Shown here: positions 3,936-10,777 of the stretch, in pieces
How positions within the stretch are numbered: position 1 is the stretch's first letter
Layout of the letters: every line of letters begins with the position of its first letter
DNA from: Halieaceae bacterium MED-G27
Lineage (GTDB): Bacteria > Pseudomonadota > Gammaproteobacteria > Pseudomonadales > Halieaceae
Direction of reading: 5' to 3'
Assembly (NCBI GenBank): GCA_002456975.1
Contig: NTKA01000016.1
Coordinates: 1 to 38,299, forward strand
Length of the DNA stretch: 38,299 nucleotides
Notes under the pieces: model-generated
Told to the model about the DNA's origin: nothing
The model's database searches: none
Seen by the model: the letters and a program-made list of their open reading frames with translations, nothing else
Program-made: the position numbers and the translations under genes

Positions 3936-4067
3936 GGAAAGATCTCGTTTTAGTAGTTTGGGAGTGTTACGTAGAACAACCCCGGAAGGATTTCACGTCC
4001 GCAACAAAATAAGGCGAAACCATAAATATCAATTATCGATAACTACGATAGTGCAGCTGGCTCGCTA

Positions 4068-4718
4068 TTAACCCGCTCGAAGCTGCAGAAGAGGGTTCAA
4101 CCAGCGATAGTGCCATCGGGTAAACTTGAGTGGAGACTCAAGCACTGCAAGACAGATACAGTCACCGCCAGGGAGCGCAGTTGGAGCGTGGATATCGCCC
4201 GCCTCGCGAACCAGGAAATCGCCCGCATGATAAATGCCGGTTTCATCAGAAAACCCACCACTTAGGACCAGAGTCATCTCAGTTCCCGAGTGATTGTGTT
4301 GCGGGATCTTGCCGCCTTCCGAGATATGATAAACAGAGACCTCAGAGGCACCAGGCACATCGCCAAGGCTCGCGATCCGCAACGACTTGGTTACGCGTCG
4401 CCAATTTAAATCAGCGGTCGCGCCCGATCGAATTTTTTTTACCATCGACGACAACGACGCCGCTGTCGCGTCATTAGCTGCGGGCTCTGGACTCACTTCA
4501 TCCAGTCGCAGCATCACCGCGTCGAAGACGCTGGAGGAAACACTCTCGGCCGTGCCATTCTCGAGCATCGCACCGCCGAGATCATCGAGCTTCGCTAACT
4601 TCGAGCGACACTCGGAGCAGTGGTCCAAATGTGTGGAGACACAAACACTGTGCGCGACAGGCAGCGTGCCTGACGAAAACTCTACCAAAGTATTGCTATG
4701 GGGATGATGTGTAATCAT
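4068..4718 (-). CDS. chrR: ChrR-type anti-sigma factor, zinc finger plus cupin
   Basis: A 216-residue zinc-dependent anti-sigma factor that should hold the ECF sigma factor encoded upstream inactive until photo-oxidative stress. The N-terminal ZAS domain has an HX3CX2C motif (His30, Cys34, Cys37) with further histidines at 4, 5 and 7. The C-terminal cupin carries His141, His143, Glu147 and His177, the same residue types and numbers I recall for the second zinc site of Rhodobacter sphaeroides ChrR. All known ligands are therefore present. In that family the N-domain binds sigma, and the cupin is needed for the singlet-oxygen response. The ATG at 4718 has no strong ribosome site (an AGGG lies about 16 nt upstream). 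The 147-nt gap from the sigma gene is long for such a pair and contains a candidate promoter. Confidence 0.93.
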   Translation of the reverse strand: MITHHPHSNTLVEFSSGTLPVAHSVCVSTHLDHCSECRSKLAKLDDLGGAMLENGTAESVSSSVFDAVMLRLDEVSPEPAANDATAASLSSMVKKIRSGATADLNWRRVTKSLRIASLGDVPGASEVSVYHISEGGKIPQHNHSGTEMTLVLSGGFSDETGIYHAGDFLVREAGDIHAPTALPGGDCICLAVLESPLKFTRWHYRWLNPLLQLRAG

Positions 4719-4839
4719 TGTTACGTTCTAACCCTGCCCTGCCAAACTGTCAATTCTATTACCGGCTAATTGTGGCTCAACTACGAAAAATGGCGGCCTT
4801 TAGCTCTTTCAGCACCTCTAGATGGGGCTGATTTGTTAA

Positions 4840-4868
4840 TAAATACACGAAAACTCGCGGCTGGATCA
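4840..4868 (-). promoter_or_regulatory. Candidate ECF-type promoter for chrR
   Basis: On the minus strand TGATCC (4868-4863) is followed after 17 nt by TATTTA (4845-4840). TGATC-type -35 elements are reported for the RpoE-ChrR sigma group. The site starts at the TGA stop codon of the sigma gene, so part of the match may be chance. It would give chrR its own sigma-dependent transcript with a leader of about 115 nt. Seen by eye only. Confidence 0.3.
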
Positions 4869-5495
4869 CTGCTGTAACCCCGCGTCCATGAAAACTTGAA
4901 GTTTTTGGATCGCCAGACGCACCCTCGATTTGACCGTTCCCAGCGGTAATCCCAGTTCAGCTGCGGTCTCCGAGTGCGACTTACCCTCCATGTACACCTT
5001 AGCAAGTATCTGGGCTTGATCCTGCGGTAGATCCTTTAAGAGCTCCCGGACCCTAACCGCACCCCGACTCGCATGGAGGGCCATCGTCGGCTCGTCACTC
5101 TCCAATTCAAAACCGATATCCTCTGCTTCCAGCTGCGTGTCAAACTTTTGCAAGCGACGGAACATATCGGTTCTACAATTTCGTGCGATGGTATAAACCC
5201 AGGTGCTCGCAGCTGCTTTCTCCGGATTGAAACCAGCAGCTTTCTGCCACACCTTTAGCATTACTTCCTGAACCAACTCATCAGCATGAGCTGCTGACAG
5301 CGATGACCCCGACAGGGCGAAGGCTTTTATCAATGGGGCGAAGTGAGCAAAGAACTTTCCAAAGGCGGCACGATCGCGATATTCGGCGATGCGAACCACG
5401 CACAAGCTCCATTCATCGGTGCGACGACCCTGGGGCACCGACCAAGCAAAGTTTGCGGGTTGTCCCCGAGCGCCTTCCCCCTGCTTATCTACCAT
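4866..5495 (-). CDS. rpoE: ECF sigma factor, RpoE/ChrR-associated (singlet-oxygen type)
   Basis: A 209-residue group-4 sigma factor. Region 2 spans about residues 40-112, including DELVQEVMLKVWQKA and STWVYTIARN. Region 4, with its helix-turn-helix (HSETAAELGLPLGTVKSRV), lies at about 148-203. There is no region 3, as expected. Its partner chrR follows on the same strand, which places it in the ChrR-controlled class responding to singlet oxygen or organic peroxides. I chose the ATG at 5495 because AAGGAG lies 8 nt upstream. A longer frame from a GTG at 5555 would overlap the divergent promoter and adds 20 residues that do not look like sigma sequence. The divergent neighbours are probably its targets. 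Confidence 0.93.
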   Translation of the reverse strand: MVDKQGEGARGQPANFAWSVPQGRRTDEWSLCVVRIAEYRDRAAFGKFFAHFAPLIKAFALSGSSLSAAHADELVQEVMLKVWQKAAGFNPEKAAASTWVYTIARNCRTDMFRRLQKFDTQLEAEDIGFELESDEPTMALHASRGAVRVRELLKDLPQDQAQILAKVYMEGKSHSETAAELGLPLGTVKSRVRLAIQKLQVFMDAGLQQ

Positions 5496-5548
5496 TTGCC
5501 CAACTCCTTGGAGCGTATCTCTGCACAGAATACACAAATCCAAAAAAC

Positions 5549-5580
5549 TTGACACTATTAATGTATATTTAATATTACAT
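5549..5580 (+). promoter_or_regulatory. Candidate promoter/operator of the FAD-DUF1365-cfa operon
   Basis: TTGACA at 5549-5554 is followed after 18 nt by TATTAC (5573-5578), a fair sigma-70-like pair in an AT-rich patch. An inverted repeat ATGTA (5561-5565) / TACAT (5576-5580), with a 10-nt centre, covers the spacer and -10. Such repeats in the spacer are common operators for MerR-type or other regulators of light-induced lipid genes. No TGATCC element is visible on either strand of this intergenic region. The regulator is unknown; assignment is by eye. Confidence 0.42.
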
Positions 5581-5647
5581 AATGGGTGGTAAGCATCTTT
5601 TACTGATTGAAGAGAATCTGCGGTATTGCGCGAATTGGGGAGTGGTC

Positions 5648-6910
5648 ATGACAACAGCGGTAATTGGGACTGGCATCTCGGGCCTCGCCTGCGCCCGTCA
5701 GCTAGCACTTGCCGATGAGCCGGTGGTTGTTTTTGAGGCCGCTCAAAAGATCGGCGGCCACACTGCAACCATTGACGTGAGTACAAGCTCTGGCGACTAC
5801 GCGGTAGATACCGGCTTTATCGTCTATAACGACTGGACCTACCCCAACTTCATTGCTCTCCTCAACGAGTTACAGGTCGTCAATCAACCGACATCGATGG
5901 GCTTCTCCGTCTCGGATGACTTATCGGGACTCGAGTACGCCGGCAACAACCTAAACACCTTGTTTGCACAACGCCGCAATTTACTCAGCCCGAGCTTTCT
6001 CTCGATGGTGATGGAAATACTCCGATTTAACCGACAGGCCATCGCAGACCTAGAGGCCGGTAACTTGAGCTCGGGCGAGACACTGGAAACTTACTTGACT
6101 CGCCACCGCTTCAGCGACTTTTTCCGGCGCCATTACCTGATCAGCATGGCGGCTGCGATCTGGTCCGCCAATTTCCGCGAAGCACTCAATTTCCCCGCTG
6201 AGTTTTTCGTGCGTTTTTTCAAAAACCACGGGCTCCTGCAGATCGGTAATCGGCCACAATGGCGTGTCCTGCAAGGTGGCAGCCGGTCTTATTTGGATCC
6301 CATCACAGCACTTTACCAAGACAGCATCCGAGTCGACAGCGAAGTCATTGCCATCGAACGCAACCCAAATGGCAATAAACTTAGGCTTCACAATGGGCAG
6401 GAGCATAAATTTGACCATGTGGTGATCGCCACACATTCTGACCAAGCGCTGGCAATGCTCAGCGATGCCGATTCCAACGAACAGGACATTCTCAAAGCGC
6501 TTCCATACTCAGACAACGAGGTGGTTTTGCACACCGACGAATCGCTTCTACCAAGCAACAAGCGAGCATGGTCTAGCTGGAACTACAGACTGCGCTCCAA
6601 TACCGATCGAGCAACGCTTACTTACAACATGAATATTCTCCAAGGCCTCAGCGCACCGGAGACCTTTTGCGTGACGCTAAACGACAGCGATGCCATTAAG
6701 CCAAGTTCAATACTCGGCGAGTATTCATACGCGCATCCACAGTTCACAATCGAAGGCATCGCCGCACAGGCCCGATGGAATGAAATCAATGGCCCACGCA
6801 ACACCTTTTTTTGCGGCGCGTACTGGCAGAACGGCTTTCACGAGGACGGTCTTTCGAGTGGCCTTCGAGCCGCTAATGCTCTTATTGCCAAACTGAGGGC
6901 GGTAGCGTGA
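5648..6910 (+). CDS. FAD/NAD(P)-dependent oxidoreductase, amine-oxidase-like (COG2907 type)
   Basis: A 420-residue flavoprotein. The N-terminal Rossmann motif GTGISG is at residues 7-12, followed by an acidic strand end (VVVFEA) and the GGHTATI stretch that binds FAD. VDTGFIVYN, DDLSGLEYAG and, near the C-terminus, NGFHEDGLSSGLRAA are typical of the predicted amine-oxidase-like group usually found beside DUF1365 and Cfa-like genes. It probably oxidises or desaturates a membrane lipid acyl chain; the substrate is inferred from neighbours only. The ATG at 5648 is preceded by GGGGAG at good spacing and immediately opens the Rossmann fold. An earlier in-frame ATG at 5582 lies at the expected transcription start and is rejected. 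The stop codon overlaps the next gene by 4 nt (GTGA). Confidence 0.88.
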   Translation: MTTAVIGTGISGLACARQLALADEPVVVFEAAQKIGGHTATIDVSTSSGDYAVDTGFIVYNDWTYPNFIALLNELQVVNQPTSMGFSVSDDLSGLEYAGNNLNTLFAQRRNLLSPSFLSMVMEILRFNRQAIADLEAGNLSSGETLETYLTRHRFSDFFRRHYLISMAAAIWSANFREALNFPAEFFVRFFKNHGLLQIGNRPQWRVLQGGSRSYLDPITALYQDSIRVDSEVIAIERNPNGNKLRLHNGQEHKFDHVVIATHSDQALAMLSDADSNEQDILKALPYSDNEVVLHTDESLLPSNKRAWSSWNYRLRSNTDRATLTYNMNILQGLSAPETFCVTLNDSDAIKPSSILGEYSYAHPQFTIEGIAAQARWNEINGPRNTFFCGAYWQNGFHEDGLSSGLRAANALIAKLRAVA

Positions 6911-7653
6911 TCTCCTCTTTTTATGTCGGACAGTTAGCGCACACCAGACTCAGTCCGCGACGCCACTCTTTTCGATACCAGGTGTTTATGCCCTTCGTCG
7001 ATATCGAAAAGATCGAACTGCTTGTGCAGCGACTTCCTTTTTGGGGAAGCCAGCGCCTGGGCATTGCGCGGTTCTTACGAAGTGACTTTCTAGGGGCTCC
7101 CGAGCTACCGCTGCTCGATGCTGTCAAACAGCGAATTCATGAGGAGACAGGATCCACCTTCAACGGACGCGTCTTCCTGCTGGCTAACTGGCGGTACTTC
7201 GGATTACAAAACAATCCCATCGCCTGTTACTTCTGTTACGACCAAGAGCGACTCGAGTACATCATCGCCGAAGTCACCAATACTCCCTGGGGCGAGCGCC
7301 ACAGCTACGTATTGACGGTTGATAATGATGGATCGGTCTTCACTACCGTATTCCAGAAAAAACTCCATGTCTCGCCATTTAATGGCATGCAACAAGTTTA
7401 TCGCTGGTTCTCTACCGCTCCAGGCAACGATCTGGGTATAAAAATTTCGAACCTTGAGGATGGCAAGCCTATGTTTCACGCCTGCCTAACCTTGAGATCA
7501 ATACCACTGACTGCAAGCAATGGCATAAAGCTAATCGCCAGTTATCCCTTCGAAACGCTCAAGGTCACAACCGCGATTTATTGGCAGGCATTCATTCTTC
7601 TGCTGAAGGGCTTAACCCTCCAGCCACACCCAAAAAATAATCAATCGTTATGA
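6907..7653 (+). CDS. DUF1365 family protein (COG3496)
   Basis: A 248-residue member of a widespread family of unknown biochemical role. Family features are seen: the opening YVGQLAHTRLSPRRHSFRY, the middle NPIACYFCYD and EVTNTPWGERHSYVL, and a hydrophobic stretch near the C-terminus (about 215-235) that may attach it to the membrane. It starts with GTG at 6907, inside the stop of the FAD gene, so translation is probably coupled. The fixed trio FAD oxidoreductase-DUF1365-Cfa-like enzyme is known from RpoE/ChrR or light-controlled loci, and points to modification of unsaturated fatty acids in phospholipids. No catalytic residue can be assigned from the sequence alone. Confidence 0.9.
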   Translation: MISSFYVGQLAHTRLSPRRHSFRYQVFMPFVDIEKIELLVQRLPFWGSQRLGIARFLRSDFLGAPELPLLDAVKQRIHEETGSTFNGRVFLLANWRYFGLQNNPIACYFCYDQERLEYIIAEVTNTPWGERHSYVLTVDNDGSVFTTVFQKKLHVSPFNGMQQVYRWFSTAPGNDLGIKISNLEDGKPMFHACLTLRSIPLTASNGIKLIASYPFETLKVTTAIYWQAFILLLKGLTLQPHPKNNQSL

Positions 7654-7663
7654 GGAGACATCT

Positions 7664-8926
7664 ATGACAACAGGAAATATTGATGTCAAAAACATTGCAC
7701 GCCTGCCCGATGTTTGGTCTTGGCGTGGAGTCAACCTGTCTCGAAAGTTGGCTCTGAAGCTATTCTCAGGCTTGAAACATGGAAGCCTCACTATTCACGA
7801 CAATGGTGTCGTTTACCAGTTTGGATCTGGCGATCTGAGTATCGCACCAGCCGCCACTGTCACCATTGAAAATCCGACGGCATACAGCCGGATATTGACC
7901 GGCGGAACAGTCGGTGCGGGCGAATCCTATATCGATGGCGACTGGACCACCGATGACCTGACCGCGGTCACCCGCTTGTTCAGCGCCAATATGCCCACCA
8001 TGGATTCGATGAAGGCGAAACAAAACTGGTTGATCAAAGCCGCAATGGGCCTTGCTCACGCCGCGCGACGCAACTCGATGACCGGATCACGAGAAAATAT
8101 CTCGGCACACTACGACCTTGGCAATGAGTTTTTCAATCTCTTTTTGGACCCATCGCTGATGTATAGCTCCGCGGTTTTCCCGGAAGGCTGCGACAGTCTC
8201 GATGCGGCATCACAGCATAAACTACATCTGATCTGTGAAGATCTCGAGTTATCAGAAAGTGATCATTTAATTGAAATCGGCACGGGCTGGGGCGGTATGG
8301 CGATCTATGCTGCAGAGCACTACGGCTGCAGAGTCACCACCACAACTATCTCGAGGGAGCAATTTGATCGCGCCACAGCCGAAGTGAAGCGCCGCGGCCT
8401 CGACCACCTGGTTACGCTGCTGTTCGAGGACTATCGAGCACTATCTGGGCAATACGACAAATTGGTTTCAATCGAAATGATAGAAGCCGTGGGTCACGAA
8501 TACTTCGATACCTACTTCGACTGCGTCAGTAAGTTGCTCAAGCCAGACGGCAAGGCGGTTATACAGGCGATTACGATCAATAAGCAGCGCTATGAACCAG
8601 CGCGACGTTCCGTTGACTTCATCAAGCGCTATATTTTCCCGGGTGGATGCCTGCCGTCACTCGCCGTTATCAACAACGCGCTAGCAAAAAATACCGATAT
8701 GCAAATGGTCGGCTTGCGCGATATCGCTCAAGACTATGCAAAAACACTCGAATACTGGCATATCGCGTTCTTGGATAAGCTAGATGAAGTGCGAGCATTG
8801 GGCTTTGACGATCGGTTTATTCGAATGTGGCGCTTCTACTTAAGCTACTGTGAGGGTGGCTTTCGAGAACGTATTATTGGAACCTATCAAATAACAATGG
8901 CGAAGCCGCACTACCGGCCCGGATAA
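7664..8926 (+). CDS. Cfa-like SAM-dependent fatty acid methyltransferase
   Basis: A 420-residue protein of the cyclopropane fatty acid synthase family. The family signature NISAHYDLGNEFFNLFLD is at about residues 145-162, the SAM-binding loop IEIGTGWGG at 203-211, TTTTISREQ near 225-233, and KRYIFPGGCLPS in the C-terminal half. Aligned by eye with E. coli Cfa, the bicarbonate ligands Cys139 and His266 are replaced by Ser (YSS instead of YSC) and Gln (QAI instead of HTI), while Glu239 and Ile268 are kept. It is therefore probably not a standard cyclopropane synthase. Enzymes of this subgroup near DUF1365 genes have been linked to methylated or furan fatty acids. A good ribosome site, GAGGAG, precedes ATG 7664. 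I give no symbol because cfa would overstate the reaction. Confidence 0.9.
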   Translation: MTTGNIDVKNIARLPDVWSWRGVNLSRKLALKLFSGLKHGSLTIHDNGVVYQFGSGDLSIAPAATVTIENPTAYSRILTGGTVGAGESYIDGDWTTDDLTAVTRLFSANMPTMDSMKAKQNWLIKAAMGLAHAARRNSMTGSRENISAHYDLGNEFFNLFLDPSLMYSSAVFPEGCDSLDAASQHKLHLICEDLELSESDHLIEIGTGWGGMAIYAAEHYGCRVTTTTISREQFDRATAEVKRRGLDHLVTLLFEDYRALSGQYDKLVSIEMIEAVGHEYFDTYFDCVSKLLKPDGKAVIQAITINKQRYEPARRSVDFIKRYIFPGGCLPSLAVINNALAKNTDMQMVGLRDIAQDYAKTLEYWHIAFLDKLDEVRALGFDDRFIRMWRFYLSYCEGGFRERIIGTYQITMAKPHYRPG

Positions 8927-8930
8927 ACCT

Positions 8931-10349
8931 ATGCTTTTATCGCTTGCTCCGATCGTTCTACTTATCGCACTTCTTTTTTCAGCGGTGCAATTATTCGGGG
9001 CAGACGCCTCCTATGGGCCAAACCAAGTGGCGCTGCTGATTGCATCGGCTGCCGCAGGGCTCGTCGGTATGTACCGCGGTATGTCTTGGAGTGAAGTTCA
9101 GGACAGCATGGTCGACGGCATTAAGGTCGGCCTTGGGCCCATCCTTATCCTGATGGCCGTCGGTGGCTTGATTGGCAGCTGGATGATTGCGGGAACAGTA
9201 CCCGCAATGATCTATTACGGCGTTGCCATACTTAATCCCGCCATTTTCTTTGCCGCAGCGTCGGTGATTTGCGCGCTTGCCTCAATCAGTATCGGGAGTT
9301 CATGGACCGTAGCAGGCACACTGGGTATAGGCCTTATCGGGATCGCCGACAGCTTTGGGCTATCGCCAGCCATTACCGCTGGCGCCATTATCAGCGGCGC
9401 CTATTTTGGTGACAAACTGTCGCCTTTGTCTGACACCACTAATCTCGCCGCTGCCTGCACCAACGTCGATCTATTCGCTCATATTCGTCATATGCTGTGG
9501 ACAACAGTCCCGGCCTTTATCATCGCGCTGCTCTTCTTTTCGATGATCGATGCCGGTGCAGCAACGGAGCCCGAGCAAATAGCGATACTGCGCTCAGCAC
9601 TCGCCAATGAATTCAATATTGGCATTGGGGTCCTCATCCCACTGCTGGTGATGCTGCTTTTGATTTGGCGCAAGGTGCCCGCCTATCCAGCGATTATGCT
9701 TGCCACAGTTGCCGGTGTAGCAACAGCCGCGCTGCTGCAGGCCGACGTTGTTAGAGCCTTCGCACTCACGAAGAACGCCGACTCCTCAGTCCCTCTGATC
9801 GAGGGTCTGTGGCTCACCTTGTTCGGTGGTTTTGAGGGCAACACTAGTAACCAAGAGCTGAACCAACTCATCAGTAAAGGCGGCATCGCGAGCATGCTTA
9901 ACACCGTCTGGCTAATCATTAGCGCTCTTGCCTTCGGCGGTGTGCTGGAGCGCACCGGCATCCTCAAGCAACTCCTTGATGCCGTCTTACGCGCCGTAAA
10001 GTCAACAGGCGACCTGGTCTTGGCAACCGTCACTGGTGGTGTGGTTACCAATATTTTGGCTGCAGATCAGTTCCTCGCTATTGCACTGCCGGGTCGACTG
10101 TTCTCAACGACTTACGATGACTTCGGCCTCAGCCGTGAAAATCTGTCGAGAACGCTGGAAGACTCGGCCACCATGACATCGGCACTAATCCCCTGGAATA
10201 CCTGCGGCGCTTACATGGCGGCAACTTTGGGTGTCGCCACCTGGGAATACGCTCCCTACGCGATTTTCAACATGGCCTGCCCATTGCTCGCGATCAGCTT
10301 TGGCTATTTGCTGATCAAGCAAAAGCGAGTTGAAGCTGTCCCAGCATGA
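8931..10349 (+). CDS. nhaC: Na+/H+ antiporter, NhaC family
   Basis: A 472-residue integral membrane protein with about twelve hydrophobic helices. The NhaC-family core is clear: SISIGSSWTVAGTLGIG, GAYFGDKLSPLSDTTNLAA and, in the second half, LAADQFLAIALPGRLF and LIPWNTCGAYMA. It should exchange Na+ for H+ across the inner membrane, as suits a marine organism. It begins 4 nt after the Cfa-like gene with little ribosome site of its own, so it is probably expressed by read-through and translational coupling. This puts an ion transporter in the lipid-modification operon, which I do not recall as a standard arrangement. Its substrate could differ, since NhaC relatives also carry small organic acids or amines. 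Confidence 0.9.
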   Translation: MLLSLAPIVLLIALLFSAVQLFGADASYGPNQVALLIASAAAGLVGMYRGMSWSEVQDSMVDGIKVGLGPILILMAVGGLIGSWMIAGTVPAMIYYGVAILNPAIFFAAASVICALASISIGSSWTVAGTLGIGLIGIADSFGLSPAITAGAIISGAYFGDKLSPLSDTTNLAAACTNVDLFAHIRHMLWTTVPAFIIALLFFSMIDAGAATEPEQIAILRSALANEFNIGIGVLIPLLVMLLLIWRKVPAYPAIMLATVAGVATAALLQADVVRAFALTKNADSSVPLIEGLWLTLFGGFEGNTSNQELNQLISKGGIASMLNTVWLIISALAFGGVLERTGILKQLLDAVLRAVKSTGDLVLATVTGGVVTNILAADQFLAIALPGRLFSTTYDDFGLSRENLSRTLEDSATMTSALIPWNTCGAYMAATLGVATWEYAPYAIFNMACPLLAISFGYLLIKQKRVEAVPA

Positions 10350-10777
10350 ATTGGGACTACAACGATCCATATATTCGCACCGTTCGAGTACTCCCGGAGC
10401 ATATCGATGCGCTAGATCACACCAACAATACCCAGTACGTCACCTGGTGTAATGAGACCGCTTGGGCTCACACCACAGCACTCGGATTAGGCGCTAACGA
10501 GTACCAAGACCTGAATCGCGCCATGGCGCTCACGCGAGCCGATTATCAGTATCTTAGAGCTACCCGCCTCGACAATGAGCTGATGGTAGGCACTTGGATT
10601 ACACAGTGGGATCGCCGCATGACGATGGAAAGAAAAATGCAGATCGTTGATGCAGACAGCGGTGATACCGTTCTACGGGCCACACTGCAGTTTGTTTGTA
10701 TCGAAATATCGTCTGGGCGACCGAAACGTCCTCCAGAGGAGTTCATAGCGATTTATGAGCCGGCACTGGTTAGCTAA
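10346..10777 (+). CDS. Hotdog-fold acyl-CoA thioesterase (YbgC/FadM-like)
   Basis: A 143-residue single hotdog domain. Near the N-terminus it has DALDHTNNTQYVTWCNETA, which matches the 4-hydroxybenzoyl-CoA/FadM thioesterase pattern of Asp-x-x-x-His-x-Asn followed by Tyr and the long central helix. The remaining beta strands (MTMERKMQIVD, TVLRATLQFVCIEI) fit the fold. It probably hydrolyses fatty acyl-CoA or a related thioester in the cytoplasm. The start ATG overlaps the nhaC stop (ATGA), so it is the last member of the tightly packed plus-strand set. Its 3' end overlaps the convergent epmA by 8 nt. Confidence 0.85.
   Translation: MNWDYNDPYIRTVRVLPEHIDALDHTNNTQYVTWCNETAWAHTTALGLGANEYQDLNRAMALTRADYQYLRATRLDNELMVGTWITQWDRRMTMERKMQIVDADSGDTVLRATLQFVCIEISSGRPKRPPEEFIAIYEPALVS

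Follow-up and report, generated by a model that had tools for sequence, protein, structure and literature searches.

We describe a membrane-lipid operon in the 38,299-nucleotide contig NTKA01000016.1 of Halieaceae bacterium MED-G27, the whole of which we call the window. The operon runs fad-DUF1365-cfa-nhaC-te: genes for a flavin adenine dinucleotide (FAD) oxidoreductase, a DUF1365 protein and a Cfa-like methylase (the trio), followed by a Na+/H+ antiporter and a hotdog thioesterase. It faces away from the genes for the sigma factor RpoE and its anti-sigma factor ChrR. We believe that this operon, nhaC and te included, has probably moved from singlet-oxygen-induced expression to expression coupled to the photosystem. 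The move would have had a two-step origin, and the photosynthesis repressor PpsR is the predicted controller of the result.

Furan-fatty-acid genes and rpoE-chrR form the conserved core of the singlet-oxygen regulon as described in PMC6852236, and the preliminary description of this DNA implied that RpoE controls the five genes here as well. The promoters argue otherwise. We searched before fad for the RpoE-type promoter motif of extracytoplasmic function (ECF) type ECF11, TGATC[CT]-N15-18-CGTA, counting only loci in which rpoE and fad lie within 400 nucleotides (nt) of each other on one contig, a rule that drops the subclade locus L039 (genome G019). The motif stands before the trio in all 48 loci outside the window's subclade (32 of 32 in the rest of the genus and 16 of 16 beyond it, 14 from the family and two from other families), against 0 of 16 promoters inside the subclade, where the best matrix scores lie within the shuffle range and tandem PpsR-type boxes are found instead. 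One locus from another family, L112, fits the pattern with a matrix score of only 4.7. The subclade is monophyletic in a tree of fad and cfa (16 tips, support 1.0; the genus has 49 tips, support 0.998), which left out 4 of 70 rows; its 16 tips include L039 and omit L075, and the 16 promoters include L075 and omit L039. The motif that would let RpoE regulate itself appears to have an older history of loss. It precedes rpoE in 15 of the 16 loci outside the genus, and before rpoE-chrR it was found in 0 of 32 other loci of the genus and 0 of 16 of the subclade. A sigma-70 scan of 5440-5700 gave no promoter on the strand of rpoE.

The motif appears to be still in use in the subclade, because eight of its genomes keep it at another place. 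We searched 58 genomes, including 11 from the subclade, for the strict pattern TGATCC-N16/17-CGTAA. The window's genome has one site (L181, contig C25, near 24286), upstream of two genes whose products are a lipoprotein (DUF3833) and a membrane protein (DUF3429). The same site recurs in seven more subclade genomes (L177, L179, L180, L182, L185, L190, L200), and the eight sites score 16-19 bits with the ECF11 matrix. The two families were matched by model in the window's genome and by translation similarity in the other seven; all eight loci were reached via the motif search, and of the two sites in genome G018 one was inspected. On this evidence the subclade still uses the ECF11 motif, but not at the trio. 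The DUF3833-DUF3429 pair stands before a gene that, from its translation, is tsaB-like.

What the subclade has before the trio is a sigma-70-like promoter, the only such match in 5440-5700, covered by two PpsR-type boxes that we call upper and lower. Our main matrix was built from 13 boxes hand-picked among the intergenic TGT-N12-ACA hits of photosynthesis clusters, mainly less AT-rich hits being omitted; it also lies behind the background count, the spacing data, the pair profile and the box scans at folE and photolyase genes. With this matrix every one of the 16 subclade promoters has the lower box, scoring 14.8-20.5 bits, and the 48 other loci offer nothing above 8.8; among 208,591 further positions scanned in 14 subclade loci, not one attains 14.8. 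An unselected matrix of every distinct intergenic hit (21 boxes from all 20 loci) also puts the lower box first in the window, at 17.7 bits against 12.2 for the next site, and gives 15.4-18.6 in the subclade and at most 11.7 in the 48 others. A matrix made from boxes of non-subclade loci only gives 15.1 against 12.7 in the window, and one made from boxes of subclade loci only gives 17.6 against 11.2. Six matrices were made from sites of this genus, and all of them rank the lower box first in the window.

The spacing of the two boxes points the same way. They are offset by 25 in the window and by 26 in the other 15 subclade promoters, which leaves 7-8 nt between them; the upper box scores 5.8-17.6 bits in those 15. 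The bchC boxes of the window's own genome are 26 apart and its bchF boxes 25 apart, the second of the latter being weak (10.5 bits). A strict palindromic pattern has 7, 13 and 6 sites in the window's genome, G006 and G030, and the reversed pattern has 2, 2 and 3. The strict sites that recur in all three genomes lie at fad, between ppsR and bchF, at bchC and between crtE and crtC. Similar arrangements have been reported elsewhere: of the 15 putative PpsR sites of Congregibacter litoralis, 12 are arranged in tandem and spaced 7 or 8 nt apart (PMC2654016), and two boxes lie over the -35 and -10 of bchC in Rhodobacter capsulatus (PMC5362033). The putative sites before fad, two TGT-N12-ACA-type palindromes over a sigma-70 -35 and -10, would thus have the architecture of PpsR-repressed photosynthesis promoters. 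Unlike those PpsR/CrtJ operators, they stand at a membrane-lipid operon on a contig other than that of the photosynthesis genes, and the upper box is half degenerate.

The window's genome (2.02 Mb, 75% complete) belongs to the genus Luminiphilus of the Halieaceae and has the regulator that these boxes would call for. PpsR is encoded on contig C21 (TIGR02040, 401.5 bits; cut-off 275.4), where ppsR adjoins bchF, bchN and bchB; that stretch also holds acsF and a gene for a BLUF protein. Contig C29 carries bchC, crtC- and crtE-like genes and reaction-centre genes. Family models matched bchF, bchN, bchB, acsF, bchC and the BLUF protein; crtE and crtC fell below the model cut-off, the copies scored being those of G030. 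The reaction-centre family is present in 44 of 57 genomes of the genus, this one among them. Because it carries PpsR, bch and reaction-centre genes, the source of the window is an aerobic anoxygenic phototroph, and singlet oxygen is a real hazard there. Earlier work already proposed that PpsR probably regulates the photosynthesis genes of this group of bacteria (PMC3666943, PMC2654016). We also observe that the BLUF gene (C21, 3442-3882; L281) and acsF are divergent and that the region separating them has a PpsR-type box at 3938.

Encoded together, the three members of the trio resemble UfaD, UfaO and UfaM in their domains. In Rhodobacter sphaeroides and Rhodopseudomonas palustris those three enzymes are reported to produce methylated furan fatty acids on phospholipids (PMC7380195). 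By analogy the likeliest products of the trio are furan (or methyl-branched) fatty acids of membrane phospholipids, which would quench singlet oxygen. The third enzyme aligns best with Escherichia coli Cfa (6bqc). At the bicarbonate ligands it has Ser for Cys139 and Gln for His266 and keeps Glu239, Ile268 and Tyr317 (numbering of PMC3132707). Taking the Ser and Gln as proof against cyclopropane synthesis fails, because cotton cyclopropane synthases are described with both changes (PMC3132707), and the ligands do not settle the product. The best alignment and the cotton parallel both speak for a trio that yields cyclopropane rather than furan fatty acids, an outcome we find conceivable if unlikely. 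Against that outcome, a cyclopropane synthase is not known to need a DUF1365 or an FAD partner. The partners found here have the domains of UfaO and UfaD (PMC7380195).

The five genes are packed on one strand as the preliminary description had them, divergent from rpoE-chrR and with junctions exactly as it gave: a GTGA overlap, 10 nt, 4 nt and an ATGA overlap. A scan of 8500-9000, the region of the cfa-nhaC junction, found zero sigma-70-like promoters, and its sole terminator-like match is on the opposite strand within cfa. The packing suggests that all five probably share one transcript. The order holds in close relatives too. A search of 117 relatives for DUF1365 was positive in 98, and 99 stretches were compared gene by gene. 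Wherever the contig reaches, the genus has pntB-pntA-chrR-rpoE divergent from fad-DUF1365-cfa-nhaC-te-epmA-efp, with the exception of genome G053, which lacks te. In the genus, all 49 loci with cfa and nhaC on a single contig have the two side by side, which is more than chance, and the start codon of nhaC lies 2-13 nt past the stop of cfa in every row but L058 (18 nt). The thioesterase gene was found on 44 of 51 loci, several of which end at a contig edge. NhaC of the genus apparently lacks an N-terminal extension that other genera have.

Outside the genus the picture is different. The 16 loci of other Halieaceae genera have nhaC on the stretch in 8 cases, 1.1 to 5.4 kb from cfa, and in these 8 and in L141 and L146 at least one opposite-strand gene lies between. 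The genes in between are one or more of those for a DinG-like helicase, a VRR-NUC nuclease and an EamA transporter (Pfam, one representative each), and nhaC-te-epmA-efp forms a separate block. A further 32 stretches, from other families, gave neither nhaC nor te; they reach at most 8 kb to either side, and contig ends shorten some of them. The preliminary description did not recall the two genes as standard members of the photo-oxidative system, and these loci bear it out; that they were original, ancestral members we reject on the same intervening genes and on the other-family stretches that hold neither. Because opposite-strand genes part cfa from nhaC-te in the other genera, the simplest account, and the most likely one, is that nhaC-te joined the lipid operon through a single deletion in the ancestor of the genus. 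The sigma-lipid module has itself moved within the Halieaceae: in two genera (L143, L145) pntA, opposite-strand genes, nhaC and epmA-efp stand together without it. In the genomes of these loci (G067, G063) the rpoE-chrR lipid module is on another contig, near photolyase and dehydrogenase genes (L096, L091).

This history bears on the further idea of the preliminary description that the products of nhaC and te serve the lipid trio as functional partners, the one for ion balance and the other for acyl proof-reading. The constant adjacency of cfa and nhaC in the genus and the overlap of te with nhaC in the window are what one would expect of partners, and the R. sphaeroides operon also holds a transporter, RSP1089, of another family (GPH) (PMC7074977). 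We doubt the idea all the same. Outside the genus the two genes never adjoin the trio in the loci examined, G053 (99% complete) is a member of the genus with no thioesterase match, and deletions of RSP1087, 1088 and 1089 are reported to have left the fatty-acid profile of R. sphaeroides unchanged (PMC7380195).

Several points weigh against PpsR control and must be set beside the evidence for it. The lead of the lower box over the next site falls to 2.4-6.4 bits with the unselected matrices. A matrix from the chromatin immunoprecipitation sites of R. sphaeroides (PMC4344238, Table 2) puts the lower box second, at 12.3 bits to 12.6 for an intragenic site in nhaC, and with that ranking the matrix is not decisive. 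The upper box lacks its TGT half in all 16 subclade promoters and is weak in the window. G027, a subclade genome that is 93% complete and has pufLM, has no PpsR above the cut-off, and G048, also of the subclade, has only a fragment of one and none above the cut-off. G001 and G014 of the subclade have no strict ECF11 site in the 58-genome search. In a paper with a fatty-acid table for Luminiphilus syltensis (PMC3679898), a species that may lie inside or outside the subclade, the word "furan" is absent from the main text. Finally, 24 of the 32 other loci of the genus with an ECF11 promoter sit in genomes with reaction-centre genes. Phototrophy as the sole cause of the promoter switch is rejected because the ECF11 promoter is kept in those reaction-centre genomes, and phototrophy alone is insufficient. 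The switch is thus a matter of lineage rather than of necessity.

RpoE could act via a diverged promoter, and a conventional RpoE-ChrR regulon would have it drive the five genes from there, the boxes being an AT-rich promoter core without PpsR. In its favor rpoE-chrR is intact and adjacent, and furan-fatty-acid genes are described as part of the core sigma-E regulon of other bacteria (PMC6852236). We consider it quite unlikely: the best ECF11 scores of the subclade are no better than shuffles, the normal motif at DUF3833-DUF3429 argues that the motif itself has not drifted, and two boxes at a fixed spacing are kept in every subclade promoter. It is very unlikely that the boxes are real but bound by another regulator, for example a Fis-type helix-turn-helix protein like TyrR, whose boxes have the same TGT-N12-ACA outline, given that our box matrices derive from photosynthesis-cluster boxes and that the other strict sites common to the three genomes sit at photosynthesis genes.

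We return to the two-step origin with predicted PpsR control. The first step, at the base of the genus, would have been the loss of the opposite-strand genes between the trio and nhaC-te-epmA-efp, placing nhaC-te directly behind cfa, and rpoE-chrR would have lost its own ECF11 promoter at this stage as well. In the second step, in the window's subclade, the trio would have lost its ECF11 promoter, and the sigma-70-like promoter under the two tandem boxes would have replaced it. PpsR would then repress the operon and possibly the divergent rpoE, since the boxes lie in its upstream region too. Once PpsR repression is lifted and the cell produces pigments, the operon would be transcribed along with them. 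The UfaM-, UfaD- and UfaO-like enzymes would turn vaccenyl chains of phospholipids into singlet-oxygen-scavenging furan chains. Membrane protection would in this way be built in with the photosystem instead of being induced after damage. Because furan-fatty-acid genes are required for the turnover of ChrR in R. sphaeroides (PMC6852236), how ready the RpoE response is would itself depend on PpsR. NhaC and the thioesterase would ride on the same photosystem-linked transcript, and RpoE would still serve DUF3833-DUF3429.

A bolder proposal follows, which we hold only tentatively. The furan-fatty-acid enzymes of R. sphaeroides are reported to be needed for the turnover of ChrR triggered by singlet oxygen and to be RpoE targets themselves, which makes a feedback loop (PMC6852236). 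The loop may have been opened in this clade: the enzymes and rpoE-chrR are without an RpoE-type promoter, PpsR would control the enzymes and perhaps rpoE, and both the sensing of singlet oxygen and the resistance to it would be switched on with the photosystem, nhaC and te having been captured by deletion. The clade keeps the core parts, has no RpoE-type promoter there and shows an apparent photosynthesis-repressor operator at the trio. This amounts to a rewiring experiment done by nature, in which each design is represented among sister species. It opens to test whether a membrane is better protected by a response to damage or by safeguards put in place beforehand with the photosystem, and the locus shows a route by which nhaC and a thioesterase can join an operon.

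The closest described system is that of R. sphaeroides (RSP1091-1087, ufaM as RSP2144, and rpoE-chrR), which likewise has FAD desaturase and DUF1365 genes beside rpoE-chrR, the same furan-fatty-acid enzyme types and a transporter gene further along (PMC7380195, PMC6852236, PMC7074977). That operon is a sigma-E target; here the ECF11 motif is missing and the promoter has PpsR-type boxes. The operon here also includes the ufaM-like gene, with nhaC-te after it. Other gammaproteobacteria of the order have the same fad-DUF1365-cfa module, with a divergent sigma pair nearby in many loci. Unlike here, that module often precedes DUF2878 and DUF3833 genes, photolyase and short-chain dehydrogenase genes are nearby in some cases, and nhaC-te was not found on its stretches. 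The plant proteins AtUFAMD1 and AtUFAO1 are similar to UfaM, UfaD and UfaO, but the methylase and FAD parts are joined in one protein and the system is that of plant lipid droplets (PMC10940516). In the part of the literature that our search covered we found nothing linking PpsR with furan-fatty-acid genes.

Table 1. Genes and promoter elements of the divergent sigma-lipid locus, in window coordinates
Feature	Position	Strand	Basis
chrR, ChrR-family anti-sigma factor	4068..4718	-	TIGR02451 167 bits (cut-off 124.5), PF12973
rpoE, ECF sigma factor	4866..5495	-	ATG start; sigma-70 regions 2 and 4
Upper PpsR-type box (putative)	5537..5554		TTGACA half-site kept, left half degenerate; 7.2 bits
Sigma-70-like promoter TTGACA-N16-AATATT	5549..5576	+	10/12 matches; shuffles mean 0.3 sites
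Lower PpsR-type box (putative) TGTATATTTAATATTACA	5562..5579		19.5 bits; next best in 38.3 kb window 8.8
FAD oxidoreductase, UfaD-like	5648..6910	+	Family match; role by analogy with PMC7380195
DUF1365 protein, UfaO-like	6907..7653	+	PF07103 231.6 bits; role by analogy with PMC7380195
Cfa-like S-adenosylmethionine methylase, UfaM-like	7664..8926	+	Family matches; alignment with E. coli Cfa
nhaC, Na+/H+ antiporter	8931..10349	+	TIGR00931 427 bits (cut-off 370)
te, hotdog thioesterase (4HBT_2)	10346..10777	+	PF13279 over cut-off

Some assignments in Table 1 need a comment. Both members of the rpoE-chrR pair were identified by family models, and ChrR has a cupin domain and an HxxxCxxC motif that we spotted by eye in the translation. 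The list of open reading frames has a GTG at 5555 as a longer alternative start of rpoE and begins the FAD oxidoreductase at 5582; for the latter we use the ATG common to relatives. NhaC scores 346 bits with the ArcD model, under its cut-off of 650. The thioesterase passes broad Pfam cut-offs only (4HBT_2 and Acyl-ACP_TE) and stays under that of YbgC/FadM (TIGR00051, 36.9 vs 68.7).

Two further candidates for the same regulation were rejected. A photolyase under RpoE or PpsR is not supported: in 30 loci the 900 nt upstream lack an ECF11 motif on both strands, and no box there exceeds 9.0 bits, a search that promoters farther up an operon would escape; a search of the window's genome for that photolyase gave distant relatives only. 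As for folE as a second gene under PpsR, only G030, G056, G006 and G047 among 30 loci have a 16-19-bit box within 250 nt upstream, the best in the window's genome reaches 10.9, and no ECF11 motif was found at folE in the 30 loci. Pterin genes do recur near the regulon. A PTPS-family gene stands behind an ECF11-type motif beside a short-chain dehydrogenase gene in G020 (L196), folE is directly behind cfa in two genera (L082, L083), and the PpsR-type box at folE is seen in four subclade genomes (L313). FolE2 is a reported RpoE target in R. sphaeroides (PMC7074977), and pterin genes could supply a reductant for UfaO or a cofactor for photolyase.

The window's genome has a second, distant NhaC paralogue with 35% identity (contig C68, 32092-33429). 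At the far end of the operon te overlaps the convergent epmA by 8 nt (10770-10777).

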